A stretch of DNA of 64,000 bases from Bacillus sp. EAC. GTDB lineage: Bacteria; Bacillota; Bacilli; Bacillales; Bacillaceae_G. The notes beneath the pieces were generated by a model. It made no database searches and had not been told where the DNA came from. It worked only from the letters and a program-made list of their open reading frames with translations. The translations under genes were made by a program, and so were the position numbers. The stretch spans positions 496,001-560,000 of the forward strand of contig NZ_NCSY01000004.1 of assembly GCF_002156875.1 (NCBI RefSeq), in the 5' to 3' direction. This document shows, in pieces, positions 8,552 through 55,264 of the stretch. The stretch's first letter is position 1; each line of letters starts with the position of its first letter.

Positions 8552-8642
8552 AAAGTTTTATAGCCAATCATGATTTTAGTCTGTACTAGATAGGATCTTT
8601 CAAACAAAGTGTTCAAACGTGAATGAAACCGGAGGATGTGGA

Positions 8643-10010: not shown

Positions 10011-10087
10011 GTCGGTAAATTCAAAATTCACATGTTAAAACAAATGTCTCAACGGGTACTCAAATCAATCAAATGAGGGATAGTTAT

Positions 10088-35332: not shown

Positions 35333-35469
35333 TAAGTCAATAAATAAGGAAGGGGATAAAATTTAGTGGAAATTGGTAGATTTTCTGTTCAATTTAAGAA
35401 AATCTAATAATGGATTTTGAACGATTTCTAGCAGTGCAGATCAAAACACACATGCAGGAGGACTGGAAA

Positions 35470-39772: not shown

Positions 39773-40705
39773 ATGAGTTTCAACAGTACGAATATTTACA
39801 GCATGAATATACAAAAATTAGAGTATCTAGTTGAAGTTGCTAAAACTGGTTCCTTCTCGATTGCTTCACAAAATCTATTTGTAAGTCAGTCCGCTATTAG
39901 TCAATCAATTATTAGTATTGAAAAAAAATTAGGGATAAAATTATTCGAGCGATCAAGAGGAGGAAATAATGCAATTCCAACAATTGATGGCAAACAAATT
40001 ATTCCTATAGCGAATGAAATCGTTTTAAAATATCAAGAACTAATCCATAAAGCCCAATTAATTAATAATAATATGACTGGCAATTTAAAAATATCGACAG
40101 TTCCAGGTTTTATTGAACAACTATTAAGCCCAATTTCTACAATTAAGGAAGAATATCCTAATATCACGATTGATATCTTTCAAAAACCGGGACAAGAAAT
40201 TATTGAGGATGTATTAGAAGGCCGCAGTGATATAGGGATCGTACCTTTTATAAAACATTTACTAGAAAATAATGAACACTTAATTTATCATAAGTTATTT
40301 GAAGGTAAAATGAAATTATTAGTAAGTAAAAAGTCTTCATTAGCAAAAAAATCATTTGTTACGCCACAACAAATCGTTAAAGAAACACTTCTTAGCTATA
40401 ACGGTGAATATATGCGATGGTTTAAACATAATTTCTATAAAAAGTTTGGCGTAATGAAGGAATTATTTAACTCAACAAATATTGATGCATTATGGAAAGC
40501 GACTGATGATAACTTAGGTGTCTTGTTTGTTCCTTGGTTTCCTGACGTTAACTACAACATTGGTGAAAATCTTAAGCTGTTAGATATTAAAGATTACGAG
40601 GAGATACAAATTCAATATGTTTGGATTATGTCTAGTAAAAAACATTATTCAACTATGATAGAAGATTATATAACGATTTTAAAAGAAGAATTAAATGCAA
40701 AATGA
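39773..40705 (+). CDS. LysR-family transcriptional regulator 1
   Basis: 310 aa. Winged HTH at the N-terminus (KLEYLVEVAKTGSFSIASQ, VSQSAISQSIISIEKKLGIKLFERS), then an effector domain of two lobes (GNLKISTVPGFIEQLLSPI onward). Start at 39773 has AAGGAG 7 nt upstream. Its HTH resembles those of the two other LysR genes here (40841 and 52027), but the rest is more distant. It sits at the left edge of the alkyl-sulfate island, convergent with LysR-2. Targets unknown; the subtilases or the island are both possible. Confidence 0.85.
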   Translation: MSFNSTNIYSMNIQKLEYLVEVAKTGSFSIASQNLFVSQSAISQSIISIEKKLGIKLFERSRGGNNAIPTIDGKQIIPIANEIVLKYQELIHKAQLINNNMTGNLKISTVPGFIEQLLSPISTIKEEYPNITIDIFQKPGQEIIEDVLEGRSDIGIVPFIKHLLENNEHLIYHKLFEGKMKLLVSKKSSLAKKSFVTPQQIVKETLLSYNGEYMRWFKHNFYKKFGVMKELFNSTNIDALWKATDDNLGVLFVPWFPDVNYNIGENLKLLDIKDYEEIQIQYVWIMSSKKHYSTMIEDYITILKEELNAK

Positions 40706-40715
40706 TATTGTGAAG

Positions 40716-40750
40716 AAGTGGATGAATATTTTCATCCACTTTTATTTTTC
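40716..40750 (+). terminator. Terminator between the convergent LysR genes
   Basis: AAGTGGATGAA / TTCATCCACTT stem with loop TATT, then TTATTTTT. Confidence 0.85.
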
Positions 40751-40840
40751 AGTCAAAGCTAGTGCATAATGAAATGCTTGTTTTATTTTGGAAAAGACAC
40801 GTAAAGCAACTACTGTCAATTGAATTTATGCTTACTATTC

Positions 40841-41749
40841 TTAATTTATATAATATTGTAATTCAGATTTAATAAACTGGACTAAGTGTTTCTCTATTTT
40901 TGAAGGAGTTCTATTCTTAGTTTGAATAATTCCAAGTGTTACATTAATAGGTTCATAGTTGATAATATCAACTTCTACAATTTTGCCTTCTAGAACAAAA
41001 GGGTTACTTTTAGTGGCAAAATCTGGGGCAAATCCAATGGCTGATCCATTTGCGATTAATCTTGCAATTTCTTCGGTTTGATTTGAAGAAAAAAGGATAT
41101 TCAATTTTCCAAAAGCAACTTGAAAATTAGTAATAAACCATTTAATATAATCGCCATTATATAAGACTACTGTCTGCTGTAAGATTTCCTCTGGTGTTAT
41201 TTTTTTCTTTTTGGCGAAAGGCGAATCGCTACTTACGTAAACCTTTAGGGTTCCATCAAGGATACTTTCGAAATTTAAATGCTCAATATTTTTTTTAATA
41301 TCTTCATATATGCAGATCAGACCAATTTCAGCTTTATTCTGTTGAACCGATTCAACCGTCAGCTCAGTAATATTTTCTGAAATCTCTATCGTTAAATTTG
41401 AATATAAATTTTTAAATTCCATTAATGGTTTTAATAGATAAGTAATAAAAGCAGGTATTGTAGAAACTCTGAGATTTCCAGTATGTATATCTAAGATGTT
41501 TCTAGCCTCTTCGATCAATTCATCATATTTTAACAAAACTTCATTTGCTTTTTTTACAATTTTAGAACCTTCATATGATTGAACAACCCCATAACGAGTG
41601 CGATCGAAAATCTTTATACCTAATTCATCTTCTATTTTTTTTATATCTTGACTAATACCAGATTGACTAATATGAAGATTCTGGCCAGCTATCGAAAAAG
41701 AGCCCGTTTTAGCAACTTCAGAAAGAATCTTTAATTTTTGTATGTGCAT
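40841..41749 (-). CDS. LysR-family regulator 2, divergent from the aldehyde dehydrogenase operon
   Basis: 302 aa. HTH: KLKILSEVAKTGSFSIAGQ and ISQSGISQDIKKIEDELGIKIFDR. Effector domain includes GNLRVSTIPAFITYLLKPLMEF and VVLYNGDYIKWFITNFQVAFGKLNI-type stretches nearly shared with LysR-3 at 52027. Divergence from the first catabolic gene, with a 453-bp gap holding repeats and a cre-like site, is the classical LysR arrangement. In Pseudomonas the alkyl-sulfatase gene sdsA is controlled by a LysR protein, SdsB; the same logic is inferred here. The effector may be a fatty alcohol, fatty acid or alkyl sulfate. Confidence 0.87.
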   Translation of the reverse strand: MHIQKLKILSEVAKTGSFSIAGQNLHISQSGISQDIKKIEDELGIKIFDRTRYGVVQSYEGSKIVKKANEVLLKYDELIEEARNILDIHTGNLRVSTIPAFITYLLKPLMEFKNLYSNLTIEISENITELTVESVQQNKAEIGLICIYEDIKKNIEHLNFESILDGTLKVYVSSDSPFAKKKKITPEEILQQTVVLYNGDYIKWFITNFQVAFGKLNILFSSNQTEEIARLIANGSAIGFAPDFATKSNPFVLEGKIVEVDIINYEPINVTLGIIQTKNRTPSKIEKHLVQFIKSELQYYIN

Positions 41750-42202
41750 AGGATGACCACCTTATTAGATAGATTACTATAGTAGAAATTCGTTTTGAGG
41801 ATCATAAAATCCTCCAATTTTAGATATTAGTAATTGTGAACTAGATATTACAAACCTTAATTTTACTAAGTATTTGTGAAGTTATACAATTAGTTCAGAT
41901 AATTCTTAATTTTTTAAATTATAAAAAATCTAACATTAACTTTCACCTGTTTTATAGTTTGAAAATTATTTTTGTGTATTTTGCAAGCGTTTTCTTGGGT
42001 GTAAGAGTGAGTGGGACAGGTCATTTTAAGTTATCTTACTTCTATTAAAAAAGGGAATGAAAATGATCGGTGACCTAGTAGCGTTAAAGCTTAATGATTC
42101 ACTTTTTTACTAAATAAGAGGTAAGGCCAATTCGAAGGAAAAGGTGTTACTATAAATCCTATTTATTTAATTTTTATAAAACTATTTCTAGGAGGTTTTT
42201 AA
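41750..42202. promoter_or_regulatory. Divergent control region LysR-2 / aldehyde dehydrogenase
   Basis: 453 bp. It has direct repeats TAGATATTA at 41821 and 41842 (21 nt apart), the 16-mer TTAATTTTTTAAATTA at 41906-41921, a cre-like site at 41982-41995, and an imperfect inverted repeat (AGGTCATTTT / AAAATG..TGACCT) across about 42018-42073. No gene seen. Confidence 0.55.
41982..41995. promoter_or_regulatory. Putative CcpA (cre) site
   Basis: TGCAAGCGTTTTCT, which fits TGNAANCGNTNNCW. The identical 14-mer occurs at 53170-53183 before the second sulfatase. Suggests carbon catabolite control of the island. Confidence 0.65.
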
Positions 42203-43720
42203 ATGCAAACGACTGTAAAAGTATTGGAATTTCCGCTTTATATTGATGGTAAATGGACACCTGCAAAAAGTGGTGAAACATTCAGCGTGAAAAATCCTGC
42301 GACTGGAGAAGTTATCGCCAAGGTCGCTAAAGCAGGAAAAGAAGATACTGAAGCTGCAATTGCTTCTGCACGTAAAGCTTTTGATTCAGGAGTATGGTCA
42401 AAAAAATCACCACAAGAAAGAGCTCAAATCTTAATTAATTTCGGGAATAAGATTGTCGAACATTCTCAGGAACTTGCATTCTTAGAAGCTATTAGCTCAG
42501 GTGCAACTGTTCGACGAATTTCAAATTTAGATATCTTATATTTAGTGGATCTGCTTCAACAAACAGCAAAGTTTACTGTTGAGTATCCATTTGTGGAGTC
42601 TCTACCAGTATTACCTTTTCCAGGACCTAGCAATAATCAGGTATGGCGAGAAGGGATTGGTGTCGTAGCTGCGATTACACCTTGGAATCTTCCAATGCTT
42701 TTAGCAATGTGGAAAATTGCGCCTGCACTAGCAATGGGGAATTCTATTGTTATTAAACCAGCTTCAAATACACCTCTTTCTACGTTGAAATTAGCAGAAA
42801 TAGCTACTGAGGCTGGAATTCCAGCGGGTGTATTCAATGTTGTTTCAGGACCTGGAGCTACGGTAGGAGAAGTGCTTGCTACTCATCCTCAAGTTGATAA
42901 AATCGCCTTTACGGGATCAACAGAGGTGGGACGACGAATTATGCAATTAGCATCAGGAACTGTAAAACGCGTTACGCTTGAATTAGGTGGAAAGTCACCT
43001 TCAATCGTTTTACCAGATGCTGATCTAGATATTACAGTACCAGGTAGTTTATTTGGCTTCTGTCTTCATTCGGGACAACTTTGCGAGTCTGGCACACGAC
43101 TATTAGTACATGATTCGATTTATGATGAAGTGGTTGATCGCTTAGCAAAATTGGCTTCTTCAATTACAATTGGAAACCAACTTGATATGGCGAATGGAAT
43201 GGGGCCAATGGCTTCTCAGCAGCAACTTGACACGGTATTATCCTATGTTGAGACTGGGATTCAAGAAGGTGCTCGCTTAGTATGTGGTGGAAAGCGTTTA
43301 ACAGGAGAAGGCTATGACCATGGCTATTTCATTGAACCTACTATCTTCGCAGATGTGGACAATAAAATGAAGATTGCTCAAGAAGAGATTTTTGGTCCTG
43401 TCCTTTGCGTAATTCGTTACTCTACGATTGAAGAAGCAATCGAAATAGCGAATGACTCAATTTTTGGATTAGCAGCTGGTATTTGGTCAAAAGATGTTAA
43501 CAAAGCCCTTAAAATTTCACGTGAATTAAAAGCAGGTACAGTTTGGATTAATGACTGGCACATGTTGAGAAGTGACGCACCATTTGGTGGATATAAGCAA
43601 AGTGGTTTTGGGAGAGAACTTGGCCGTTATGCATTAGATGAGTACACGCAAGTAAAGCATGTTCATTGCTCACTTACTCCTGAACTAAGCCAAAAACCTT
43701 GGTACGGTATCTTATTATAA
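42203..43720 (+). CDS. NAD(P)-dependent aldehyde dehydrogenase
   Basis: 505 aa, full-length ALDH superfamily. Cofactor motifs AAITPWNLPMLLAMWKIAPA and FTGSTEVGRR; catalytic Glu260 (TLELGGKSP) and Cys294 (SGQLCESGTR); EEIFGPVLCV and GFGRELG near the C-terminus. AGGAGG site upstream. It is the first gene of a co-oriented set with an Fe-alcohol dehydrogenase, an acyl-CoA ligase and an alkyl sulfatase. The likely task is therefore oxidation of a fatty aldehyde (for example dodecanal) to the fatty acid. Substrate is inferred from neighbours only. Confidence 0.9.
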   Translation: MQTTVKVLEFPLYIDGKWTPAKSGETFSVKNPATGEVIAKVAKAGKEDTEAAIASARKAFDSGVWSKKSPQERAQILINFGNKIVEHSQELAFLEAISSGATVRRISNLDILYLVDLLQQTAKFTVEYPFVESLPVLPFPGPSNNQVWREGIGVVAAITPWNLPMLLAMWKIAPALAMGNSIVIKPASNTPLSTLKLAEIATEAGIPAGVFNVVSGPGATVGEVLATHPQVDKIAFTGSTEVGRRIMQLASGTVKRVTLELGGKSPSIVLPDADLDITVPGSLFGFCLHSGQLCESGTRLLVHDSIYDEVVDRLAKLASSITIGNQLDMANGMGPMASQQQLDTVLSYVETGIQEGARLVCGGKRLTGEGYDHGYFIEPTIFADVDNKMKIAQEEIFGPVLCVIRYSTIEEAIEIANDSIFGLAAGIWSKDVNKALKISRELKAGTVWINDWHMLRSDAPFGGYKQSGFGRELGRYALDEYTQVKHVHCSLTPELSQKPWYGILL

Positions 43721-43811
43721 AATAACTAGATTTAAAAGTTACGATTATAAAATAGTAGATTAATTCAGTATGAGTTATAAAAAACAATAATAGAAAAGAG
43801 AAGGTGATCCC

Positions 43812-45020
43812 ATGATAACGTCATTTTTTCAGTTTTCGGTTCGTACAGTTGTAAACAGTGGGGCTGGAGCTCGCTCAATGTTACCAGAAATGATTAAAGG
43901 ACTTGGTGGTAAAAGAGCAGTTCTTTACGTTGATAAAGGAATAACTCAAGCAGGAATTACAGATAAAATTAAGGAACTATTTGAAGCTATACCTAGTGCA
44001 GTACAGCTAGTAGGGGTTTTTGAAGACATTGAACAGGATGCAAAAGGTGAAATCATAAATCGTGGAGCTAAGTTCTTTAAAGAATGTAATGGAGATTCAT
44101 TGATTGCTGTTGGTGGAGGAAGTGTTTTAGACACAGTTAAAGCAATTAAATGGATGATTCATAATAAAGTACATGATATTCGTGAAGAACTTCTTGTTGG
44201 TAATGTGATGGAATTTTGGCCAAAAGCGCAGTATATTCCAATTCCACACGTTGCAATTGCAACGACAGCGGGAACTGGTGCGGAAGTGTCTCCAATCGCT
44301 GTAGTATTTAATGAAAAGGTAGGAATTAAAACGAACATCCTAAATACATTCATTAGTCCTGATATGGCGATTTTAGACCCGGAGCTTACAGTTGGCTTAC
44401 CACCAAAAATTACAGCATTTACAGGATTTGATGCATTAACACATGCAATTGAGGCTTATTTCTCACCTCAGTCTAATCCAATGACAGATGCATATGCACT
44501 TCAAGCGATTCGTATGATTGTAGATAATTTACCTACTGCAGTTCATGAAGGGCATAACCTTGCTTCACGATCGAATATGTTAACGGCTAGTTCGATGGCA
44601 ATTTCTGCGTTTAGTCTTTCTGTTAATGCGATTCCAGTTCATAATATAGCACACGTATTTGGTGCAAAATTCGGAATTCCACACGGACTAGCAAATGCAG
44701 TGTTATTACCAAATGTAATGGAATCACTTGCACCATTTTATTTAAAACGAATTCATGGCTTTGCGGAAGCGCTAGGTCTAAAGGATTTACCTGAAAAACC
44801 AGAAGAGTGCCTTGCGGAAGTTGTATTATTCATCCGTAATCTACGTGAAAAAGTCGGTCTTCCTAGTACATTCGCTGATTTTGAGGTGAATGTCGATAAT
44901 ATGGCTTACATTGTAGCGATGGTTCATAGCGATCCATGTGGAATATTCTTCAAAATTCCGCCTGAAGTTATTGCAAAAGTTTCCAATGAAGTAGCGGGCT
45001 CTGGCGTAGTTATTTCATAA
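43812..45020 (+). CDS. Iron-containing (group III) alcohol dehydrogenase
   Basis: 402 aa. NAD-binding AVGGGSVLDTVKAIKW; TTAGTGAEVSPIAVV; metal-ligand region DALTHAIEAYFSP, HNIAHVFGAKFGIPHGLANAVLLP and a later His-rich part, all as in Fe-ADHs. Preceded by AGAAGGTGAT. Sits between the aldehyde dehydrogenase and the acyl-CoA ligase, so it should oxidise the primary alcohol set free by the alkyl sulfatase. A weak hairpin after its stop may lower but not stop transcription into the ligase. Confidence 0.9.
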   Translation: MITSFFQFSVRTVVNSGAGARSMLPEMIKGLGGKRAVLYVDKGITQAGITDKIKELFEAIPSAVQLVGVFEDIEQDAKGEIINRGAKFFKECNGDSLIAVGGGSVLDTVKAIKWMIHNKVHDIREELLVGNVMEFWPKAQYIPIPHVAIATTAGTGAEVSPIAVVFNEKVGIKTNILNTFISPDMAILDPELTVGLPPKITAFTGFDALTHAIEAYFSPQSNPMTDAYALQAIRMIVDNLPTAVHEGHNLASRSNMLTASSMAISAFSLSVNAIPVHNIAHVFGAKFGIPHGLANAVLLPNVMESLAPFYLKRIHGFAEALGLKDLPEKPEECLAEVVLFIRNLREKVGLPSTFADFEVNVDNMAYIVAMVHSDPCGIFFKIPPEVIAKVSNEVAGSGVVIS

Positions 45021-45037
45021 TTTTAATTATAGTTAGC

Positions 45038-45065
45038 AGGCACCTTCAAATAATTGATGGTGCCT
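45038..45065 (+). terminator. Hairpin after the alcohol dehydrogenase; weak terminator or attenuator
   Basis: AGGCACC / GGTGCCT with a 14-nt loop and no real T-run (CAATTATATTC). Confidence 0.45.
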
Positions 45066-45223
45066 CAATTATATTCAAAATTTATTAATAAAATAGGAAG
45101 AAATAATCTTACTAATCTATCTCTTGTTTTATTAATAGAATTTCAGTCAATCTCACTTAATTCAGTATTTTGCTGGATTGTGGTCTATAAAAGTATGTAT
45201 TTATTAGTAGGAGGAAAATAGTA

Positions 45224-46741
45224 ATGGGTTGGAATTTAAATGAAAGTTTAAGAAAAAGTGCAGAAAAATTTCCAAATCATAATGCAATTACATTTGAAAA
45301 TAAACACATCACATATAGCGATTTATATTCACAGGTTGAATGTGTTGCTTCTAACTTAGTACAAGATGGAATCAGAAAAGGTGATAGAGTAGCCCTAGTA
45401 TTAGGGAATTGTCCGGAATTTGTCATCGCCTATTATGGAATTCTACGTGCAGGTGGGGTAGTAGTACCGGTTAATCCAATTTTTACGAAGAATGAAATTT
45501 CGTATATTTTATCGAATAGCCAAGCAAAAGCTGTCATTGCAGATTCTTCAATGGAAGCGACCATTGAATCTCTTAAAGTAGAATTAAAACAAATCGAAAA
45601 ACAGTATTATGTAGGGTCGAATAAAGCTGAGTTCATTTGGGAGCAGTTGATTGAAGGTAAGTCAAATGACATTGAATATCCTTTAATGATAGAAGATGAT
45701 CTTGCTGTTATTTTATATACTTCTGGAACAACTGGGAAACCAAAAGGAGCTATGCTAAGTCATAAAAATATGGCATCAAATGCAGAGTCAGTTGTTAAAT
45801 TAGTAGAGTTCAACGAAGATGATCGAATACTAGCTGCTTTACCAATGTTCCATGTATTTAGCATGACAGTTTGTATTAATTCACCAATTATGAGTGGGGC
45901 TACTATAGTAATTGTTCAAAGATTTCATCCTGTTGAAGTCACTAATACAATCTTTAATGAGAAAGTGACATTATTTGCCGGCGTACCAACAATGTACAGT
46001 TTCTTATATCAATTAAAGGATTATACTGACGAGCATTTCAAAAGTATCCGAGTATGTTTATCAGGTGGAGCATCGTTGCCTGTTGAATTACTTCAACGGT
46101 TTGAAGAAAAATATAAGACTACTATTTTAGAAGGATTCGGTCTTTCAGAAACAGCTCCAGTAACGGCATTTAATCCTTTAAAAGGAATCCGAAAAGTTGG
46201 TTCAGTTGGAATAGATATTCCTGGAGTAATAAACAAGGTTGTCGACAAATATGGAAAAGAAGTTCCAAGAGGAGAAATAGGTGAACTTATTGTAAAAGGT
46301 CCTAATGTAATGATTGGATATCTTGGTATGCCTGAAGCAACTTCTAATGCCATTAAAAATGACTGGTTTTATACTGGTGACTTAGCAGAAATGGATAACG
46401 ATGGATATATTTTTATTGTTGATCGAATAAAGGACATGATTATTGTAAACGGATACAATGTATATCCAAGAGAAGTAGAGGAAGTAATCTATCAACACCC
46501 AGCGATTGTTGAAGTAGCGGTAATCGGAATTTCAGATAAAGATTATGGAGAAGTCGTAAAGGCATTCGTTGTATCGAATGATGAAAGTATATCGATGGAT
46601 GACATCTTACATTTCTGCCAAGACAAGCTTGCAAAGTACAAGCTGCCAAAACTGGTGGAATTTAAGAAAGAATTACCTAAGAATAGTACAGGTAAGATTT
46701 TAAAAACAGCTTTAAAAGTTGAACAAGTGGAAATTAATTAG
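45224..46741 (+). CDS. Long/medium-chain acyl-CoA synthetase (AMP-forming)
   Basis: 505 aa ANL-superfamily ligase. P-loop-like ILYTSGTTGKPKGAMLSH, LEGFGLSETAP, YTGDLAEMDNDGYIFIVDRIKDM (A8/hinge region) and the C-terminal catalytic Lys in PKNSTGKILK. AGGAGG upstream. Similar to Bacillus LcfA/YngI types. It would activate the fatty acid from the dehydrogenases to acyl-CoA for beta-oxidation. The beta-oxidation genes themselves are not in the window. Chain length is not readable from sequence. Confidence 0.9.
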   Translation: MGWNLNESLRKSAEKFPNHNAITFENKHITYSDLYSQVECVASNLVQDGIRKGDRVALVLGNCPEFVIAYYGILRAGGVVVPVNPIFTKNEISYILSNSQAKAVIADSSMEATIESLKVELKQIEKQYYVGSNKAEFIWEQLIEGKSNDIEYPLMIEDDLAVILYTSGTTGKPKGAMLSHKNMASNAESVVKLVEFNEDDRILAALPMFHVFSMTVCINSPIMSGATIVIVQRFHPVEVTNTIFNEKVTLFAGVPTMYSFLYQLKDYTDEHFKSIRVCLSGGASLPVELLQRFEEKYKTTILEGFGLSETAPVTAFNPLKGIRKVGSVGIDIPGVINKVVDKYGKEVPRGEIGELIVKGPNVMIGYLGMPEATSNAIKNDWFYTGDLAEMDNDGYIFIVDRIKDMIIVNGYNVYPREVEEVIYQHPAIVEVAVIGISDKDYGEVVKAFVVSNDESISMDDILHFCQDKLAKYKLPKLVEFKKELPKNSTGKILKTALKVEQVEIN

Positions 46742-46802
46742 TTTAATAGATAAATTTTCTGATCTACGCATTTTTAGTTTACTACGATTTTTGGAGGTTC
46801 CT

Positions 46803-48707
46803 ATGACAAATAACATATTAAATCAATCAATGCCCGCAACTTCTTTTACAAAAAAGGCAAATTTGGCAATATATGAAAATCTTAATTTTGATGATAAAGA
46901 GGACTTCTTTGATGCAAACAGAGGATTTATTGCACCACTAGAAGCAAAGATTATTAAAGATGATTCTGGGGAAGTTGTTTGGGACATAGAACAGTTAAAC
47001 TATCTAAATGACACCGCACCAGACACAGTTAATCCAAGTTTATGGAGAAATGCACAGTTACAGGCTATATCTGGTTTGTTTGAAGTTGTAGAAGGTGTAT
47101 ATCAAGTTCGTGGACAATCAATGGTCACTAACTTTTTCATTGAAGGAAAACATGGAGTTATTGTCATTGATGCATTAGGAAGTACTGAATCGGCTAAGGC
47201 AGCTATGGAGTTATATTATAATCATCGACCACAAAAGCCAGTAACGGCAATCATTATAAGTCAAAGTCATGCTGACCATTTCGGTGGTATTCAAGGAGTA
47301 CTAGAATATGCTGAAAACCCAAATATTCCAATTATAGTACCTCAATATTTTACAGAAGAAGCGTTAAGTGAAAATGCGCTTTTAGGCACGATCATGGCGC
47401 GTCGTGCAGAGTATCAGTTCGGTAAAAATTTACCAGACGGTACGAAAGGCTCTGTATCAATAGGTATTGGTCCAACAATGGGTTCAGGTACTTTTAGTTT
47501 TATGTTACCAAATATTGAAATTGAAGACGAAATTCAATCGATGGAAATCGATGGTGTAACTTTTAAATTTTTATTAACTCCAAACACTGAAGCACCAGCT
47601 GAAATGCATTTTTATATAAAAGATTATAAAGCATTATTCGTATCAGAGAATGCCAATAAATTAATGCATCAAATTTATACAGTAAGAGGTGCAAAAACTC
47701 GAGATGCCTTACATTGGGCAAATTCTCTCGATAAAACAATCGATTTATTTGAAAATGAAGAAATCGATGCATTACTTATGATTCATGCATGGCCTGTTTG
47801 GGAGAAACATAACGCAATGAAACATTTAAAACTGCAACGTGATTTATACAAATATATGCACGATCAGACGGTGCGTTTAGCTAACCAAGGATATACAATG
47901 GATGAAATAGCTGAAACAATCAAACTTCCAAAAGAATTAGATACTTATTGGGGAAATCGTGGGTATTATGGTACATTGAAGCATAATTCAAAAGGTATTT
48001 ACAATTTTTATTTAGGTTATTATAGCGCTCATCCTTCCGATTTGGACCCATTACCTCAAGTGGAATCGGGTCATAAATATGTCGAATACATGGGTGGAGC
48101 AGATAATATTTTGAGACAAGCAAAAGCTGACTTTGAAAATGGTGAGTATCGCTGGGTAGCTCAAGTATTAAAAAATGTCGTTATGGCAGACCCAGAAAAT
48201 TCAGAAGCTAAAAACTTACTAGCAGATACGTTCGAACAATTAGGATATCAAGCGGAATCGGCAAATTGGCGCAATATTTATCTAGTTGGCGCATCAGAAC
48301 TAAGAAATGGAGTTAATAAAAATATTTCCCCATTAGATGTTTCTGGCGTTATTAAAAATATGCCAATAAATGAATTCCTAAAACTGGTGGCTGTTAAATT
48401 AAACGGTCCAAAAGCAGAAGGTAAAAAAATAACGATAAATTTAACATTATCAAATACTAACCAAGAGTATACTTTATTTTTAGAAAATTCTGTGTTATTT
48501 TTCAAAGCAAATAAGTTAGACGCGAAAGCAGATGTATCTCTAACAACAGATCAATTTGCATTCTATGGAATTGTTCTTGGACTTATCACACCAGAGCAAG
48601 CAGTAGCTGCTGGTAAATTAATCCTTTCGGATGATCAGTCAAAATTGAATGAGTTTTTATCGCTTTTAGATGGATTTGATCCTTATCCAAATATCGTAAC
48701 ACCTTAA
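46803..48707 (+). CDS. Alkyl sulfatase 1 (SdsA1/BDS1-like metallo-beta-lactamase), cytoplasmic, with altered metal motif
   Basis: 634 aa from the ATG at 46803 (TTGGAGG 5 nt upstream); the frame runs back to 46719 inside the ligase gene. Regions: MBL domain (~100-370), dimerisation domain (~375-500, NRGYYGTLKHNSKGIYNFYLG), SCP2-like C-terminus (~530-634). TEAPAEMHFYI, ENANKLMHQIYTVRGAKTRD and IHAWPVW are the expected alkyl-sulfatase blocks. The metal motif reads S-Q154-S-H156-A-D158-H159, so the first His ligand of HxHxDH is Gln. No signal peptide, hence cytoplasmic. The role is hydrolysis of primary alkyl sulfates to alcohol and sulfate, if still active. Confidence 0.88.
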   Translation: MTNNILNQSMPATSFTKKANLAIYENLNFDDKEDFFDANRGFIAPLEAKIIKDDSGEVVWDIEQLNYLNDTAPDTVNPSLWRNAQLQAISGLFEVVEGVYQVRGQSMVTNFFIEGKHGVIVIDALGSTESAKAAMELYYNHRPQKPVTAIIISQSHADHFGGIQGVLEYAENPNIPIIVPQYFTEEALSENALLGTIMARRAEYQFGKNLPDGTKGSVSIGIGPTMGSGTFSFMLPNIEIEDEIQSMEIDGVTFKFLLTPNTEAPAEMHFYIKDYKALFVSENANKLMHQIYTVRGAKTRDALHWANSLDKTIDLFENEEIDALLMIHAWPVWEKHNAMKHLKLQRDLYKYMHDQTVRLANQGYTMDEIAETIKLPKELDTYWGNRGYYGTLKHNSKGIYNFYLGYYSAHPSDLDPLPQVESGHKYVEYMGGADNILRQAKADFENGEYRWVAQVLKNVVMADPENSEAKNLLADTFEQLGYQAESANWRNIYLVGASELRNGVNKNISPLDVSGVIKNMPINEFLKLVAVKLNGPKAEGKKITINLTLSNTNQEYTLFLENSVLFFKANKLDAKADVSLTTDQFAFYGIVLGLITPEQAVAAGKLILSDDQSKLNEFLSLLDGFDPYPNIVTP

Positions 48708-48732
48708 TGAATGAATTAATTTTTACACAATA

Positions 48733-48784
48733 AGCACCTGTTCAATCATGTTCGGTTCAAAAAAGGATTGTGCAGGTGTTTTTT
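48733..48784 (+). terminator. Terminator after alkyl sulfatase 1
   Basis: CACCTG-TT-CAATC pairs with GATTG-TG-CAGGTG, followed by TTTTTT. Confidence 0.75.
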
Positions 48785-48846
48785 CCAAAGGTATTTGCTA
48801 AAGTTATCAAAATAAAGAATGGATTTGATGAGAGGCAGGAGTTTGG

Positions 48847-50118
48847 ATGAAAAGTTGGGCGAAATGGGTTATTTTATTTTCACTTTTTATTATGGCTATT
48901 ATTAATTTTGCAGACAAATCAATTTTAGGTTTAGCTGGAATACATATTACCAAAGATTTAAACTTAACCTCTACCGAGTTTGGTATTGTAGGTAGCAGCT
49001 TTTTTTGGCTATTTTCGATATTTGGAATAATAGGTGGCTCCCTTTCGGATCGTTTTGGTACTGGAAAATCACTTGCTATTATGGCAATTATTTGGACAAT
49101 CGCGCAATCTATGGCTTTGTTTGCATCAAGCATACCTATTTTAATATTAAGTAGATTATTATTGGGGGCAGGAGAAGGTGCATTTCTAGCAACGGCAATT
49201 AGCCATATAAGTAAATGGTTTAAACCAGAATCACGTGGATTCGCAATTTCTATCATTAATTTTGGAAATGTTGTTGGGATAGCTGTTACTGCTCCTATTA
49301 TAGTTTCGCTAATATCAAATTATGGTTGGAGACAAGCATTTTTTATTTCTGGTATTTTTAGCTTCGTCTGGTTCATTGCTTGGCTTTGGTTAGGAAGAAT
49401 GAAACCAACTGTTTCCATTAAAGAAGAAGTAAATATTTTTGAAAATAAAAATGAGAAAAACAAGAAAGATATGTGGGAAGCTTTACGATCTCCTATTTTT
49501 ATAATTACAACCTTAGTTGCATTTATTGCCTATTCGTTCATTGTTTTTGGACTTACTTTTAATCCTTCATATCTAATAAAAGTAAAAGGGTTATCTGAAC
49601 AACAGTCAGCAACAGTTATTGCTATTTCTGGATTAATTGGAGCCGTCTTATCAATCGTCTTATCCATCATTTCAGATCGTTTATACAAAAAAACAGAAAG
49701 TTTATGTAAGGCGCGTACCTTATTTACTGCCATTTGTGTGTTACTAGCAGGAATTTTGTACTCACTGTATCCACTTTTAAACGGGGTGGGTTCAATCATC
49801 ATCGTACTTTCATTAGTAAATACACTTGTGGTGACTGTAAATACTCTTAACCCTGCTGTAGTAATTAGTTTACTTCCACAGCGAAGAGGTGTTATGACAG
49901 GAACCTATTTTGGAATAATGACTTCATCAGGTATAATTACTCCAATTATTTTTGGAAAACTTATTCAAGATTCTGGTACAAATATAGCAGGTGGCTATAG
50001 CATAGCAATTTTGGGAATATCAATTGCATTGGCAATTGCAGGGTTATTAATATTCCTTTTCGGAAGCAGAAATCAAAAAGTTTCAACAGTTAAAGATAAT
50101 AAGCTAGTGAACCTCTAA
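48847..50118 (+). CDS. MFS transporter
   Basis: 423 aa with 12 predicted helices. First-loop motif GGSLSDRFGTGKSLA, and RLLLGAGEGAFLATAISHISKWF typical of the anion:cation symporter-like branch of the major facilitator superfamily. Begins MKSWAKWVILFSLFIMAIINFADKS-like, common in organic-anion carriers. AGGCAGGAG upstream. Its place between the two sulfatases suggests import of an alkyl sulfate or export of a product such as sulfate or a short organic acid. This is context only. Confidence 0.82.
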   Translation: MKSWAKWVILFSLFIMAIINFADKSILGLAGIHITKDLNLTSTEFGIVGSSFFWLFSIFGIIGGSLSDRFGTGKSLAIMAIIWTIAQSMALFASSIPILILSRLLLGAGEGAFLATAISHISKWFKPESRGFAISIINFGNVVGIAVTAPIIVSLISNYGWRQAFFISGIFSFVWFIAWLWLGRMKPTVSIKEEVNIFENKNEKNKKDMWEALRSPIFIITTLVAFIAYSFIVFGLTFNPSYLIKVKGLSEQQSATVIAISGLIGAVLSIVLSIISDRLYKKTESLCKARTLFTAICVLLAGILYSLYPLLNGVGSIIIVLSLVNTLVVTVNTLNPAVVISLLPQRRGVMTGTYFGIMTSSGIITPIIFGKLIQDSGTNIAGGYSIAILGISIALAIAGLLIFLFGSRNQKVSTVKDNKLVNL

Positions 50119-50306
50119 AGAGAGTCGGATAAAAGAATCAAAGGAATCTCAACGCTTGTGGTTGCTATTTTCGGAAATTTTTAGCGTTTTGATCGGATCA
50201 TTCCAACTAAAAAGATGATGTGAACGAGGAAACTAAAAGGTAATTTTAAATACAAGTGATATAAAAAAATGAGACGGCTTTTAGTTGGGATTATACAAAT
50301 GAAAAT

Positions 50307-50343
50307 GCTCAAACTCTTGTATTTTAAGGGTTTGAGCTTATTT
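50307..50343 (+). terminator. Terminator-like hairpin, near-copy of the one at 55292
   Basis: GCTCAAAC / GTTTGAGC with a 14-nt loop (TCTTGTATTTTAAG), followed by TTATTTAATTTT. The loop and stem closely match the hairpin after sulfatase 2. Confidence 0.7.
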
Positions 50344-50420
50344 AATTTTAATTAGTTTATCTTTTATATAATTAAAGTTTTTTAGTTTATAGTAGTAAGT
50401 CAAAAAAGAATAATTTAAAT

Positions 50421-50450
50421 TGAATATTTATTATGCATTTTTAGATACTA
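50421..50450 (+). promoter_or_regulatory. Putative sigma-G promoter of gerA-2
   Basis: TGAATA at 50421 and GATACTA at 50444, spacer 17 nt. Sigma-G consensus is about TGAATA-N17/18-CATACTA, so there is one mismatch. The forespore timing suits a germination protein. Confidence 0.6.
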
Positions 50451-50484
50451 AATAAGATGGTATAAAGTTGATTCGAGGTGAAAT

Positions 50485-51948
50485 ATGAATAGCGCATTAC
50501 AAGATTTTACCAAGGGCCTGAATAAAAATATAAAAAAGGTAAAAGAAGAGTTACATGATACGCCTGAATTATATGTGAGACAGATTCAATTGGACGCAAA
50601 TGGAGACAACATTGGTGCATTATTGTATATAGATGGGATTGTTAATACAGAGCTAATTCGGGAGAGTATTATTGAACCTTTACATAGTATTCGAATCAAG
50701 GATAAAGAAACCTTTATGAATACGTTAGCATGTTATCATATTCGTTCAGAAAACGTCGAGGTAATAACATCAATTTCTTCCTCAATTGAAGGGATTCTCA
50801 GTGGCAAAACACTTGTTTTAATTGATGGGTTTGAAAGTGGCATACTTGTTGATACAGCACAATGGCAGCAACGATCGGTCGAACAGAGTGTAAGACAACG
50901 CAATATTTATGGACCGTTGATTTCTTTCTCGGAACAATTGAAAGTGAACTTAAATTTACTTCATAGTATGATTCAATCTCCTACATTTATGGTAGAAAAA
51001 AAGAAACTCGGAAGGGTCGCAAAAACAGATATAGCAATTGTTTATTTAACTGATCGAGTTGATCAAATTGCTTTGAAAGAAGTTCATAATAGAATTGACT
51101 CATTACATGTTGATTATGTACTTGAGTCAAGAGTAGTTGAATTAGCAATTGAAGGAACACAGAAAACATTTTTTCCACTGTCTTTTATAACTGAGTTGCC
51201 AGATGCTGTAGCTTCCGCATTGTATGAAGGAAGAATTGCAATTTTGGTAAACGGCACCCCAACCGCATCAATTGTACCAAATGTATTCGTTCAATACTTT
51301 CAGCAACCAAGTGACTATTATGTTAAACAAATAAAGTTAAGCGTTCGCCTTATGACAATAATAAGTTTTCTGGTAACAATCTTGTTTCCTGGATTTTATC
51401 TTGCATTTGCAAAATTTCATGACAATTTGGTATCAAAAGAAATTCATAAAAAGTTTTTTGAACAAACGATTACCATTTTGCCTTTGTGGGCTGAAGTATT
51501 CTTTCTACTCCTTTTGTTACAATTATTAGGAATTGGTTCATATAAAATCTCAAGGGAAATGATGCTAGTAGTTTCATTAATCTCAACAATTACAATTGGT
51601 ACGACAGCAGTAGATGCTAAGCTAGTTCACCCTATTAGTCTCATCGTTGCGGGGATAGCTTATCTTACGAGCACTATGCTTACAGTTGGGACATTACAGG
51701 GTAGCCTTCAACCTATACGATATATTTTTATTTTTATAGGGAATTTTTTCGGTTTCACAGGTATGGCTATTGGATTGTTAATTTTGGTTATACATATGTC
51801 TCGTTTACGTTCAGTTGGTGTTCCATATCTAGCACCGATCATTCCTTTTAATTTTAAAGAATTTAAAGATGTTTTTTATAGGGGAGATTTACGAAAATTA
51901 ATAAATAGTCCACACAAATATCCTCATGATAAAAAGGAAAAAAGTTAG
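50485..51948 (+). CDS. GerA-family spore germination protein, A subunit (orphan copy 2)
   Basis: 487 aa, paralogue of the copy at 27046. Same soluble part (SGKTLVLIDGF, RIAILVNGTP) and membrane part (~290-460), ending GVPYLAPIIPF and RGDLRKLIN. Preceded by a sigma-G-like promoter, so it is expressed in the forespore. Again no gerB or gerC nearby; both neighbours belong to the alkyl-sulfate island. Possible that B and C subunits from another operon are shared, giving a germinant receptor variant. Confidence 0.92.
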   Translation: MNSALQDFTKGLNKNIKKVKEELHDTPELYVRQIQLDANGDNIGALLYIDGIVNTELIRESIIEPLHSIRIKDKETFMNTLACYHIRSENVEVITSISSSIEGILSGKTLVLIDGFESGILVDTAQWQQRSVEQSVRQRNIYGPLISFSEQLKVNLNLLHSMIQSPTFMVEKKKLGRVAKTDIAIVYLTDRVDQIALKEVHNRIDSLHVDYVLESRVVELAIEGTQKTFFPLSFITELPDAVASALYEGRIAILVNGTPTASIVPNVFVQYFQQPSDYYVKQIKLSVRLMTIISFLVTILFPGFYLAFAKFHDNLVSKEIHKKFFEQTITILPLWAEVFFLLLLLQLLGIGSYKISREMMLVVSLISTITIGTTAVDAKLVHPISLIVAGIAYLTSTMLTVGTLQGSLQPIRYIFIFIGNFFGFTGMAIGLLILVIHMSRLRSVGVPYLAPIIPFNFKEFKDVFYRGDLRKLINSPHKYPHDKKEKS

Positions 51949-51988
51949 ACAAAAAAACCAAATTATTTGATTTGGTTTTTTTGTCTAA
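51945..51988. terminator. Bidirectional terminator between gerA-2 and LysR-3
   Basis: TTAGACAAAAAAACCAAAT pairs with its complement around TATTTG (a 19-bp A/T-rich stem). It serves gerA-2 (+) and the convergent LysR-3 (-). Confidence 0.85.
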
Positions 51989-52026
51989 AGAATTAAGTAA
52001 ATAGTTTAAAGAAAATCGAATGCTAT

Positions 52027-52935
52027 TTAATTTAAACAATAACACAACTCAGATTTAAGAAATTGGATTAAGTGCTTTTCAATTTTTGAAGGACGTTTAG
52101 CCTTTGAACGAACTAAACCTAGAGCCACATTTTTTTGTTCATAATTTAAAATCTCAACTTCAACAATTTTTTCATTTAATACATAAGGATTATTCTTCAT
52201 CACAAAATCTGGAGCAAAACCAATCCCAAAGCCATTAGATGTTGTTCGTAATAGTTCTTCAACATTGTTTGAAGAAAATAAAATATTTAATTTTCCAAAG
52301 GCAGCTTGAAAATTTGTAACAAACCATTTTAAATAATCACCGTTATATAAGACTACCTTTTGTTCTACTAATTCCTCTGGAGTAATTGTTTTTGAAATTG
52401 CATATGGAGAATTATTACTTACATAGACTTTCATTTTTCCTTCTAATATGACATCAACATTTATATCTTTTATCTGCTCTAATATTTCTCCGTAGATAAC
52501 GACAAGTCCAATATCAGCTTTATTTTGTTGAATAAATTCAAGTGTCCGTTCTGAAAAGTTTTCTACGATTTCGATAGTTGAATCTGGATGAATATCTTTA
52601 AATTCCATTAATGGTTTTAGTAAATATGTAATAAGAGCTGGAATGGTAGATACGCGTAGTTCAGCAGACTGTATCTTCAAACTACTTCGTGCTTCCTCAA
52701 GAAATTCATCATACTTCATCAAAATTTCATATGCTTTTTTTATGATTTTAGATCCATCTTCAGTTACATTAACGCCTAATCTAGAACGCTCGAATAGTTT
52801 AATCCCAAGTTCTTCTTCTATCTTAGAAATAGCCTGACTTATACCAGATTGGCTTACATGTAAGTTTTCTGCAGCAGTTGAAATAGAACCAGTTTTAGCA
52901 ACTTCAACAAGAAACTCTAGTTTTTGAATATGCAT
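52027..52935 (-). CDS. LysR-family regulator 3, divergent from alkyl sulfatase 2
   Basis: 302 aa, same length as LysR-2 and very similar throughout (for example LLKPLMEFKD, VVLYNGDYLKWFVTNFQAAFGKLNILFSS-type region, IGFAPDFV). HTH: KLEFLVEVAKTGSISTAAENLH and VSQSGISQAISKIEEELGIKLFERS. It diverges from the secreted sulfatase gene across 328 bp that contain the same 16-mer and the same cre-like site as the LysR-2 region. LysR-2 and LysR-3 may respond to the same or related effectors and could cross-regulate. Confidence 0.87.
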   Translation of the reverse strand: MHIQKLEFLVEVAKTGSISTAAENLHVSQSGISQAISKIEEELGIKLFERSRLGVNVTEDGSKIIKKAYEILMKYDEFLEEARSSLKIQSAELRVSTIPALITYLLKPLMEFKDIHPDSTIEIVENFSERTLEFIQQNKADIGLVVIYGEILEQIKDINVDVILEGKMKVYVSNNSPYAISKTITPEELVEQKVVLYNGDYLKWFVTNFQAAFGKLNILFSSNNVEELLRTTSNGFGIGFAPDFVMKNNPYVLNEKIVEVEILNYEQKNVALGLVRSKAKRPSKIEKHLIQFLKSELCYCLN

Positions 52936-53263
52936 GTTTTGCCACCTTTTTACATAAACCCTTTTAAATTAAGGAGTCATGTTATTTTTGAAAATTACTT
53001 TAATTTTTTAAATTAAAAAACGTGAACATACTATTAAAAACATCAATATTACTTAATATTTTAGTGGTTTTATACTTTAGGTTATTATTTTAAATATTCG
53101 TAAAATTAAAGATGCAAAAGTCTTTGAAGCTTTTTGTATAGATTAATGTTCTATGAAATCTCCTTTTTTTGCAAGCGTTTTCTTTCGCTTGGCATTTTGG
53201 TAAAAAATTACTAGAGCAAGAACGGACATAACCTATCTAAAAAATCAGAAAAGAGGAAAATTA
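52936..53263. promoter_or_regulatory. Divergent control region LysR-3 / alkyl sulfatase 2
   Basis: 328 bp with TTAATTTTTTAAATTA at 53000-53015 and the cre-like TGCAAGCGTTTTCT at 53170-53183. No gene. Confidence 0.55.
53170..53183. promoter_or_regulatory. Putative CcpA (cre) site, second copy
   Basis: TGCAAGCGTTTTCT, identical to 41982-41995, 81 nt before the sulfatase 2 start. Confidence 0.65.
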
Positions 53264-55264
53264 ATGTCAAAAAGCAATTTAATAATAAAAATAGCAGTAC
53301 CAATTGCACTGGCATTATTATTAAGTACTAGTTTGACATATGCTGCATCAATTCATCAAAAGCCAAATTCTGTTTCAAAAACAACATTTTTGGCAAATAA
53401 AGCAGTATACAATGAACTGAATTTTGCTGATAAACAAGATTTCGAAGATGCTCATAAAGGCTTTATTGCACCTTTAAATACTATTCCAATTAGAAATGAG
53501 TTGGGAGATGTAATTTGGGATAATAGCCGATATTCGTTTATTAGAGAAGATAAGACGGCAGCTTGGACTGTTAATCCTAGTTTATGGAGACAAGCTCAAT
53601 TACAAAATACATCTGGTTTATTTAAAGTAGTAGATGGTGTTTATCAAGTTCGAGGTCAAGATTTATCTGTTATGACAATTATAGAAGGGAAAACTGGGGT
53701 AATCGTTTTGGATACACTTTCAACAATTGAAACAGCAAAAGAAGCGATGGAGTTATATTTTGCAAATCGACCTAAACATCCGGTTAGTGCCATTGTAATT
53801 AGTCATAGTCATGCCGATCACTTTGGTGGTATTAAAGGTGTTGCAGGGTTTGCAACAAATCCTGCAACAGTTCCGATTATTGTGCCTGACAGATATTCTG
53901 AAGAGGCACTCAGTGAAAACGTACTTTTGGGTAATATAATGGCTCGGCGAGCAAGCTATCAGTTTGGTAACCTTTTACCTACAAATGAAAAAGGGTTTGT
54001 AACTGCAGGGATCGGACCAGGACTAAGCACTGGAACTTTTAGTTACTTACCACCAACAGTAGAAATAAAGAACCATGTCCAAACAATGGATATTGATGGG
54101 ATTACGTTTAAGTTTTTATTAACTTTAGATACAGAGGCACCTTCAGAAATGCATTACTATATAAAAGAGTATAAAACGTTAGTAGTAGCAGAAAATACTG
54201 GTCATACATTACATAATATATACACATTAAGGGGAGCTAAGACTCGTGATGCATTAAAATGGGTAGTTGCGCTAAATGAAACGATTGATGAGTTTGGAAG
54301 CGAAGATATAGACTCAATGGTTACTTCACATAGCTGGCCATTATGGGGCAAAGATCGCGTGATTGTGCAACTGACAAAACAAAGAGATTTATATAAATAT
54401 ATTCATGATCAAACTATACGTATGGCTAATTTAGGATATACATCTGATCAAATTGCAGATAAGATCAAACTTCCTAAAAGCTTAGCTGCTTATTGGGCTA
54501 ACCGAGGCTATTATGGAAACTTAAAACAAAATGTGAAGGCTGTTTATAATTTCTATTTAGGTAATTTCAGTGGTAATCCATCTGATTTAGATACACTTCC
54601 AGAAGATACTGCAGGTGCAAAATATGTACAGTATATGGGAGGAGCAAAAAAAGTAATTAAACAAGCGAAAGCTGACTATGACAAAGGTCAATATCCCTGG
54701 GTTGCTCAAGTATTAAAACATGTAGTAATGTCTAATCCAAAAAATATAGAAGCTAAAAACTTACTTGACAATGCATACGAACAATTAGGATACCAAGCAG
54801 AATCATCAGTTTGGCGCAACTTCTACTTAACGGGAGCACAGGAGTTAAGAAATGGTGTTGTGAAGGACGATTCAAAACGGTTTAATCCGATGAATATGGA
54901 TATATTATTAAATATGCCAGTTAAAGATTTCTTAAACTTCTTATCAATTAAACTTAATGGCACAAAGGCAGATCATAAAAACCTTACATTCAATGTTTCA
55001 TTATCGGATGTAAAAACGAAATACACGATTCACGTGGGAAATTCAGTTTTAAATTTTAAAGAGGGTTCAATAGCTTCAAATCCAGATGCTTCAATAACTG
55101 TAGATAAAGTAACATTTTATCAAATCGCTCTTGGCCTTACTGATCTTGAACAAACTGTAGCAGGTGGAAAGGTCTCTATTACTGGTAGTAAAGATAAATT
55201 TAAAGAATTATTGTCACTTTTGGATAAGTTTGATCCTTGGACAAATATCGTGACGCCTAAATAG
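53264..55264 (+). CDS. Alkyl sulfatase 2 (SdsA1/BDS1-like), secreted form with intact metal motif
   Basis: 666 aa. Sec signal peptide (1-27, SLTYAA-S). The MBL motif is intact: S-H181-S-H183-A-D185-H186. TEAPSEMHYYI and AENTGHTLHNIYTLRGAKTRD carry the acidic and His metal ligands, followed by TSHSWPLWG. Dimerisation domain (~415-535, NRGYYGNLKQNVKAVYNFYLG) and SCP2-like C-terminus (~565-666). AGAGGAAA upstream. In Pseudomonas SdsA1 the same fold hydrolyses SDS by inversion at the C-O bond. Here it would act outside the cell on alkyl sulfates and yield fatty alcohol for the enzymes encoded at 42203-46741. Confidence 0.92.
   Translation: MSKSNLIIKIAVPIALALLLSTSLTYAASIHQKPNSVSKTTFLANKAVYNELNFADKQDFEDAHKGFIAPLNTIPIRNELGDVIWDNSRYSFIREDKTAAWTVNPSLWRQAQLQNTSGLFKVVDGVYQVRGQDLSVMTIIEGKTGVIVLDTLSTIETAKEAMELYFANRPKHPVSAIVISHSHADHFGGIKGVAGFATNPATVPIIVPDRYSEEALSENVLLGNIMARRASYQFGNLLPTNEKGFVTAGIGPGLSTGTFSYLPPTVEIKNHVQTMDIDGITFKFLLTLDTEAPSEMHYYIKEYKTLVVAENTGHTLHNIYTLRGAKTRDALKWVVALNETIDEFGSEDIDSMVTSHSWPLWGKDRVIVQLTKQRDLYKYIHDQTIRMANLGYTSDQIADKIKLPKSLAAYWANRGYYGNLKQNVKAVYNFYLGNFSGNPSDLDTLPEDTAGAKYVQYMGGAKKVIKQAKADYDKGQYPWVAQVLKHVVMSNPKNIEAKNLLDNAYEQLGYQAESSVWRNFYLTGAQELRNGVVKDDSKRFNPMNMDILLNMPVKDFLNFLSIKLNGTKADHKNLTFNVSLSDVKTKYTIHVGNSVLNFKEGSIASNPDASITVDKVTFYQIALGLTDLEQTVAGGKVSITGSKDKFKELLSLLDKFDPWTNIVTPK

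Follow-up and report, generated by a model that had tools for sequence, protein, structure and literature searches.

The nearest published system found for the locus described here is slfRCHSL, the SLF module of the Psychrobacter plasmid pP62BP1, which degrades sodium dodecyl sulfate (SDS) as well as C8, C10, and C16 alkyl sulfates (PMC10779009). The locus lies in a window of 64,000 nucleotides (the whole stretch of DNA that was analysed; positions 496,001 to 560,000 of contig NZ_NCSY01000004.1) from Bacillus sp. EAC, a host that belongs to Gottfriedia (Bacillaceae). It consists of an operon for an aldehyde dehydrogenase (ALDH), an iron-type alcohol dehydrogenase (Fe-ADH), an acyl-coenzyme A (acyl-CoA) ligase, an alkylsulfatase homologue with an altered zinc site (SdsQ), and an MFS transporter, followed by a second, secreted-type alkylsulfatase (SdsOut). 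The SLF module and the window operon are alike in that an ALDH, an alcohol-oxidising enzyme, an alkylsulfatase, and an acyl-CoA ligase are encoded co-directionally beside a divergent regulator. They differ in that the SLF module, as described (PMC10779009; PMC3346939), has an AraC-type repressor and a GMC oxidoreductase where the window has LysR and Fe-ADH and, unlike the window, is plasmid-borne, with one sulfatase, hydrolysis described as extracellular, and no transporter among its five genes. An earlier, sequence-only reading of the window had placed the known genetics of this route mainly in Pseudomonas, an account that the Psychrobacter plasmid shows to be incomplete. A review names alkylsulfatase activity in two Bacillus strains, the genes not being given in the relevant passages (PMC3920027), and a literature search at the level of titles and the start of abstracts (alkylsulfatase genes in Bacillus, Bacillaceae, and Bacillales genera; QxHxDH) returned no description of the operon or of the Gln variant, which is weak evidence with subscription papers mostly uncovered.

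The island is real and conserved, and it is very likely an organosulfate catabolic regulon. The reading that we favor, with a probability of roughly 0.62, is an organosulfate-ester carbon-catabolic regulon in Gottfriedia in which SdsOut would act outside the cell and the MFS transporter and SdsQ inside, under LysR and CcpA control. The new part is SdsQ, with a Gln-type zinc site fixed in the sampled clade, a predicted cytoplasmic location, and different putative import-and-oxidation operons around it. The route that had been proposed, from sulfate ester through alcohol, aldehyde, and acid to acyl-CoA, stands as a dedicated catabolic unit in a Gram-positive spore former, given the conserved order and the shared cre-like and LysR modules; the label ‘SDS-like’ is not supported as worded.

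Conservation of the operon

Gene order was compared across 13 Gottfriedia genomes, the window's own included, and the open reading frames (ORFs) of 18 same-family neighbourhoods were compared with the window proteins. Twelve of the 13 Gottfriedia genomes bear a sulfatase, and ten (window included) hold the ALDH, Fe-ADH, ligase, sulfatase, and MFS genes in this order. Absence of a conserved gene order had been set beforehand as a refuting condition for the sequence-only reading; the order is kept both in these ten genomes and in four relatives of three other genera, an outcome in favor of the unit. G. acidiceleris DSM 18954 and G. luciferensis carry the operon and, at a separate locus, a secreted homologue. 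An orthologue of the divergent regulator LysR2 stands at nine of the ten Gottfriedia operons, and the contig of the tenth (G012) ends before the place of LysR2. Elsewhere in the genus, no alkylsulfatase was found in G008, and the sole sulfatase of G016 is a more distant secreted-type one. G010 holds LysR, SdsOut, ALDH, Fe-ADH, and ligase genes, a run headed by an SdsOut orthologue (79% identical) and with no MFS match within the 20 kb compared.

Outside the genus, the four relatives have ALDH, Fe-ADH, sulfatase, and MFS genes in order, but the ligase gene lies elsewhere or is missing from its place. The loci of P. alkalitolerans and R. aquimaris comprise LysR, ALDH, Fe-ADH, sulfatase, and MFS genes; in the former the LysR2 orthologue is 88% identical, and the locus edge bears a fragment of a ligase gene. 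Neobacillus sp. DY30 and N. niacini MER TA 87 have this same set with the ligase gene in first place. The gene order of P. simplex RUG2-6 differs from that of the window operon, with LysR and sulfatase followed by Fe-ADH (35% identity), ALDH (38%), and MFS (42%); the LysR, Fe-ADH, ALDH, and MFS proteins together span 35–43% identity. In G025, a genome of another family, SdsQ is accompanied by the TRAP genes DctQ-DctM-DctP, a zinc-type alcohol dehydrogenase, an ALDH (46%), and a CoA-binding/ATP-grasp protein whose domain set is that of nucleoside diphosphate-forming acyl-CoA synthetases. Counted together, 16 of 18 distinct SdsQ loci also hold alcohol dehydrogenase, aldehyde dehydrogenase, and transporter genes, the transporter being an MFS protein encoded directly downstream in 14 and lying elsewhere in the same gene run in two. 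Three relatives have an enoyl-CoA hydratase and a short-chain dehydrogenase downstream (L033, scanned; L029 and L038, where the pair was placed by length and position).

The gene grouping is more than chance because it is conserved across genera, and the same functions built from different proteins are better pathway evidence than conserved order alone. When 398 genomes of the phylum were searched, that of the window among them, 13 gave matches, and the one further match of nearly full length was in G428 (40%). Among same-family genomes of other genera, only G018 (L040) has an alkylsulfatase; it is 36% identical and H-type, and no operon was seen around it.

The zinc site of SdsQ

Both window sulfatases carry Pfam Lactamase_B, Alkyl_sulf_dimr, and Alkyl_sulf_C, and have in common with SdsA1/SdsAP (SulfAtlas family S3) the three-domain architecture and full-length similarity. 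SdsQ scores 199.4 bits with PF14863, 99.4 bits with PF14864, and 498.9 bits with SdsA1 (2cfu) over residues 10–634, making it a full-length S3 homologue, while SdsOut scores 519.0 bits with 2cfu over residues 16–665 and is 49.9% identical to its best plasmid-borne homologue; the match to PSdsA (4nur) is 601.8 bits for SdsQ and 666.4 bits for SdsOut. The rule for S3 asks for 30% or more identity to SdsA1 across some 600 residues, and the SulfAtlas authors identified the family partly by the motif HxHxDH (PMC5066984). In SdsOut the motif is HSHADH (His181) and every ligand named for SdsAP is kept. In SdsQ it is QSHADH, Gln154 replacing the first zinc His, and thus a defining pattern of S3 is absent from SdsQ despite full-length homology and present in SdsOut.

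In SdsAP, one zinc is bound by Asp196, His197, His367, and Glu322, and a second zinc, more easily lost, is held by His192, His194, Glu303, and Glu322 (PMC5426288). To count the substitution, 120 sequences or pieces, collected through their similarity to the window proteins or through a family search, were aligned and nine were dropped (seven judged duplicates from contig and coordinates, two without the column), leaving 111 among which near-duplicates may remain. The His192 position is Gln in 18 and His in 93, and the Gln sequences are all 18 distinct members of one Bacillales clade. The Asn eight residues after Glu322 is also Gln in the 18 (Asn in 93/93 others), Ala follows His367 in 18/18 compared to 0/93 others, and the residue four after Glu322 is Lys (16) or Gln (2). 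SdsQ differs from SdsAP by the first three of these changes, and the six remaining ligand positions (H194, D196, H197, E303, E322, and H367) are invariant in both groups. In a tree of 84 of the counted sequences (thinned, made by a quick method, with the motif columns kept in), the Gln sequences form one side of a single branch with a Shimodaira–Hasegawa-like approximate likelihood ratio (SH-aLRT) of 100, sister to the secreted SdsOut group.

The same change of the first His to Gln, with the other metal site intact, occurs in the GOB B3 metallo-beta-lactamases (Gln116), and GOB-18 is active as a mono- or bi-Zn enzyme (PMC5599593). SdsQ shares the GOB-type pattern, in which Gln takes the first place of the motif and the remaining metal ligands stay, but the substrate is unrelated and those ligands differ (Glu in alkylsulfatases), and the parallel is one of position and not of kinship. 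By this analogy, SdsQ most likely works with one firmly held metal in the Asp-His-His-Glu site, although the reaction is a different one and the relative Pisa1 is described with a binuclear zinc cluster (PMC3920027). The wider proposal, that SdsQ founds a class of single-metal, Gln-type alkylsulfatases that would act inside the cell on imported organosulfates, with at least three different Bacillales operons for import, hydrolysis, oxidation, and CoA activation around SdsQ, is a tentative one to which we give slightly less than even odds.

A zinc ligand known from SdsAP is lost in SdsQ, and neighbouring active-site positions have changed as well; this might instead mean that SdsQ has degenerated or been repurposed into a paralogue inactive as a sulfatase, the pathway then depending on SdsOut alone. 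This is distinctly improbable when set against the strong constraint on the gene, which is under purifying selection as judged from a low ratio of nonsynonymous to synonymous substitution (dN/dS 0.088–0.143 for 13 equal-length SdsQ genes compared with the window gene by Nei-Gojobori; dS 0.47–1.17), and against the retention of all other ligands in 18/18 sequences. Further, a search for PF14863 proteins found SdsQ alone in six genomes (G006, G014, G015, G025, P. alkalitolerans G245, and R. aquimaris G345), and all six hold the operon or a re-assembled version of it.

Predicted place of action and transport

The N-terminus of SdsOut is hydrophobic and signal-like, with a maximum 12-residue Kyte-Doolittle mean of 2.62, within the range of 1.74–3.48 of 18 SdsOut-type proteins, while the maximum of the window SdsQ is 0.27 and other SdsQ frames reach up to 1.53 (values that include residues before the likely start). 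SdsQ is thus predicted to be cytoplasmic and SdsOut to be secreted. The best PDB matches of the MFS protein are DgoT (a D-galactonate transporter), vesicular glutamate transporter 2, and sialin, and both the MFS and TRAP types of transporter are known for organic anions. An imported organosulfate fits the operon better than a long-chain detergent because SdsQ is predicted to be cytoplasmic, its zinc site is altered, and the adjoining transporter most closely resembles organic-anion carriers; it also appears the likelier operon substrate than SDS since 16 of 18 SdsQ loci hold alcohol dehydrogenase, aldehyde dehydrogenase, and transporter genes, one of them with a TRAP importer. The secreted SdsOut may be the better candidate for SDS-like esters.

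Plain SDS-type detergent degradation, in which alkyl sulfates of long chain would be the substrates of both sulfatases, the second being a redundant copy, and the MFS protein would be an efflux pump or unrelated, would agree with the family membership of both enzymes and with a ligase above the cut-off of the NCBIfam long-chain-fatty-acid-CoA-ligase model NF004837. Degradation of C8, C10, C12, and C16 alkyl sulfates is documented for the SLF module, which follows the same logic (PMC10779009), and Gly263, linked with primary-alkyl preference in SdsAP, is kept in both window sulfatases (18/18 SdsQ and 18/18 SdsOut-type). Conversely, Tyr246, needed for SDS in SdsAP, is Phe in both window sulfatases (Phe also in 40/93 others), and neither the altered zinc site nor a predicted cytoplasmic SdsQ beside a transporter gene, with a TRAP importer in G025, sits easily with a detergent, which leaves this explanation unlikely. 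Because Gly263 is kept but Tyr246 is not, and the literature disagrees on whether SdsAP is a primary (PMC5426288) or secondary (PMC3920027) alkylsulfatase, substrate preference cannot be read off the sequence.

Other secreted sulfatases were seen in different settings. In Peribacillus and Neobacillus, a secreted sulfatase occurs with LysR, acyl-CoA dehydrogenase, and acyl-CoA ligase genes (L054 and L056, scanned; L055, L059, L060, and L071, by position), a set that is likely another catabolic unit. A molybdopterin-type dehydrogenase set lies within a few kb of the second secreted sulfatase of Gottfriedia (L024 110–3775, scanned), and is also present in L023, L028, L032, L034, and L039 (placed by ORF length).

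The proposed oxidation steps

The ALDH and the Fe-ADH have their best PDB sequence match in the same chain, 9ldl (in its ALDH half and its ADH half, respectively), a natural ALDH-ADH fusion from the work on BdhE (PMC12454647). BdhE is one fused protein, whereas the window enzymes are encoded by separate adjacent genes, and the word ‘sulfatase’ is absent from the main text of the BdhE paper (PMC12454647). The common match fits two consecutive oxidations.

An ALDH gene followed by an Fe-ADH gene is also the arrangement of gbsA-gbsB in Bacillus. The operon could on this basis convert choline-O-sulfate to glycine betaine, with SdsQ cutting choline sulfate and the two dehydrogenases being GbsA/GbsB-like; in NCBIfam the ALDH matches betaine-aldehyde dehydrogenase best and the Fe-ADH has GbsB among its matches, and the assembly contains no GbsB above the cut-off. 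Both enzymes miss the curated cut-offs (562.9 versus 668.6 for betaine-aldehyde dehydrogenase and 225.7 versus 550 for GbsB), on which grounds the choline-sulfate explanation is disfavoured. Betaine synthesis also has no place for an acyl-CoA ligase or for the enoyl-CoA hydratase of the relatives, and PMC5870055 describes a choline sulfatase that, unlike SdsQ, belongs to class I. This choline-sulfate explanation is extremely unlikely.

Proposed regulation of the two sulfatase units

The regulators divergent from the operon (LysR2) and from SdsOut (LysR3) are 64% identical, and the intergenic regions LysR2-ALDH and LysR3-SdsOut are homologous, with a local score of 74 when the site that resembles a catabolite-responsive element (cre) is masked, compared to at most 54 in 200 Markov resamples. 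That cre-like site, TTGCAAGCGTTTTCTT, is present in both regions, and the 4.33-Mb assembly has its first 14 bases at two places only, one in each sulfatase unit (backward control 0). The sequence TTTGCAAGCGTTTT is kept upstream of the operon in 10/10 aligned regions, the next base differing in one (L035), and also occurs in the SdsOut upstream region of G010 (L030); R. aquimaris has an upstream site with one mismatch. The cre consensus WTGNAANCGNWNNCW has four matches in the window versus 1.3 expected, and the site agrees with the weak-site consensus of PMC3463425 at 13 of 14 positions. When three mismatches to the 16-mer were allowed, three sites were found in the window versus 1.6 expected, and so the weaker matches mean nothing and the two exact sites are the finding. 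In a search for palindromes that might form a LysR box, all of the matches listed were AT-rich, and no operator is proposed.

The shared 14-mer, the homologous promoter DNA, and the paralogous LysR genes support a single catabolic regulon for both sulfatase units. With a consensus site upstream and a ccpA gene present above the cut-off in the assembly, the unit is predicted to be regulated by CcpA. Catabolite control is more in keeping with carbon use than with sulfur scavenging, in which the sulfatases would free sulfate for assimilation and the oxidation genes would only detoxify the alcohol. Sulfate acquisition has been proposed as the likely role of such sulfatases (PMC5066984), but the cre-like elements on both promoters, the CoA ligase, and the enoyl-CoA hydratase of relatives point to carbon use and make scavenging very unlikely here.

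The third LysR of the island is only 38–40% identical to LysR2 and LysR3 and in the 18 same-family neighbourhoods it is never one of the two best matches shown for an ORF, and its membership in the unit is disfavoured for both reasons. The earlier assignment of three LysR regulators was right as to family, with probably only two belonging to the unit.

Proposed pathway

What we infer for catalysis, metal content, location, transport direction, substrate, and the action of LysR and CcpA can be put in order as follows. SdsOut would hydrolyse alkyl sulfates outside the cell to alcohols able to diffuse in. In parallel, the MFS carrier would import an organosulfate anion for cytoplasmic hydrolysis by SdsQ, whose Asp-His-His-Glu site probably binds one metal firmly. 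Fe-ADH and ALDH would oxidise the alcohol to the acid, and the ligase would make acyl-CoA for beta-oxidation. LysR2 and LysR3 may switch on the two units from duplicated promoter modules, and CcpA, at the shared cre-like sites, may shut off both when better carbon is present.

Several observations weigh against this scheme. Paenibacillus SdsQ genes (L049 and L050) have no pathway neighbours among the ORFs compared and the 10 scanned. With at most one mismatch allowed, the regions upstream of SdsQ (gene or operon) in Neobacillus, P. simplex, and Paenibacillus yielded no cre-like site, and neither did those upstream of the second secreted sulfatase of five Gottfriedia genomes. The cellular location was judged from hydropathy and not from a signal-peptide predictor, and secreted-sulfatase genes of Peribacillus also adjoin MFS genes, such that an MFS neighbour is no strict rule for a cytoplasmic sulfatase. 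An SdsQ lacking a zinc ligand could have no sulfatase activity, or another activity. In the 2023 study, alkyl sulfates given as the only carbon source did not support growth of the Psychrobacter strain that carries the analogous SLF module (PMC10779009).

If the organosulfate regulon holds, it would provide the genes and the regulon for organosulfate use by Gram-positive spore formers, and SdsQ would be a natural case of an alkylsulfatase from a binuclear-zinc family with one of the two sites weakened. The physiological substrate of the Psychrobacter pathway has been called an open question (PMC3346939), and the TRAP and MFS versions of the SdsQ operon would make the physiological substrate approachable through transport.

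Features of the locus and flanking genes

Every gene named by the sequence-only reading is an open frame at or very near the position it had been given, in the family it had been assigned to (Table 1). The two window sulfatases are the only alkylsulfatases found in the assembly (28 contigs, 99.7% complete). The gaps between the ALDH, Fe-ADH, ligase, and SdsQ genes are 91, 203, and 61 nt, and GGAGG precedes the ATG of SdsQ. A terminator is predicted between the MFS gene and GerA2, and as the scan found eight such sites versus 6.8 in shuffles, the separation of the two genes is only suggestive. The promoter scan returned 64 sites versus 59.9 expected, and nothing was found in the Rfam and tRNA scans.

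Table 1. Features of the sulfatase island, in window coordinates
Feature	Position	Strand	Basis
Third LysR	39773-40705	+	LysR family
LysR2, divergent operon regulator	40841-41749	-	Pfam LysR_substrate/HTH_1
Operon promoter region, conserved blocks	41750-42202	+	Alignment of 10 orthologous intergenic regions
cre-like element TTGCAAGCGTTTTCTT	41981-41996	+	Matches WTGNAANCGNWNNCW
Aldehyde dehydrogenase (ALDH)	42203-43720	+	PF00171, 589.9 bits
Iron-type alcohol dehydrogenase (Fe-ADH)	43812-45020	+	PF00465/PF25137
AMP-forming acyl-CoA ligase	45224-46741	+	PF00501; NF004837, 543.9 bits versus cut-off 476
SdsQ (SdsIn), cytoplasmic-type alkylsulfatase homologue, Gln154	46803-48707	+	PF14863/PF14864/PF00753
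MFS transporter	48847-50118	+	PF07690
Predicted intrinsic terminator 3' of MFS gene	50307-50337	+	13-pair stem, T-rich tail; consensus match only
GerA-type spore-germination gene (GerA2)	50485-51948		Inside the interval; absent from the earlier gene list
LysR3, divergent regulator of SdsOut	52027-52935	-	PF03466/PF00126
Second cre-like copy, upstream of SdsOut	53169-53184	+	16-mer identical to first copy
SdsOut, secreted-type alkylsulfatase, full HxHxDH	53264-55264	+	PF14863/PF14864/PF00753

Nine of the 12 Gottfriedia genomes with a sulfatase have a lone GerA-type gene near one. GerA2 is near the operon in 6/10 operon loci (one copy broken), and GerA1 is beside the second secreted sulfatase in five (one copy broken) of the six loci where the contig extends far enough; a seventh locus is truncated by the end of its contig. 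Examples are GerA2 of the window and a further window gene at 27046–28488, with others in L024 (7074–8513), L033 (7550–9010), L035 (12231–13697), and L051 (2–3281); in N. niacini a GerA-permease-GerC set adjoins the LysR of the operon. A functional link between GerA and the sulfatases was set aside, given a GerA-rich genome and region and the terminator predicted between GerA2 and the operon. The window genome has 23 GerA-family matches (one a fragment), eight of them within about 175 kb around the cluster, which is a large expansion of germinant-receptor A subunits, and the proximity may be incidental in a region so rich in GerA. GerA2 orthologues lie away from the operon in G010 (another contig) and G011 (>30 kb away), GerA1 orthologues are elsewhere in G014 and G015, both without that secreted sulfatase, and a literature search on the link found none at title level among the papers listed. 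In two relatives a Na+/H+ exchanger gene directly follows GerA2 (L033 6310–7482, minus strand; L035 13769–14938, plus strand), recalling the GerN-type antiporters of germination.

Very large subtilisin-like secreted proteins flank the cluster at 30833–34972, 35410–39645, and 55912–62616 (1379, 1411, and 2234 amino acids, from translations), the first two ending in dockerin-like segments as judged by eye. Farther upstream, the genes at 49–10804 form a run that, from translations, resembles catabolism of sugar acids of the hexuronate/2-keto-3-deoxygluconate (KDG) type, with a phosphotransferase system (PTS)-type regulator and a permease beyond.

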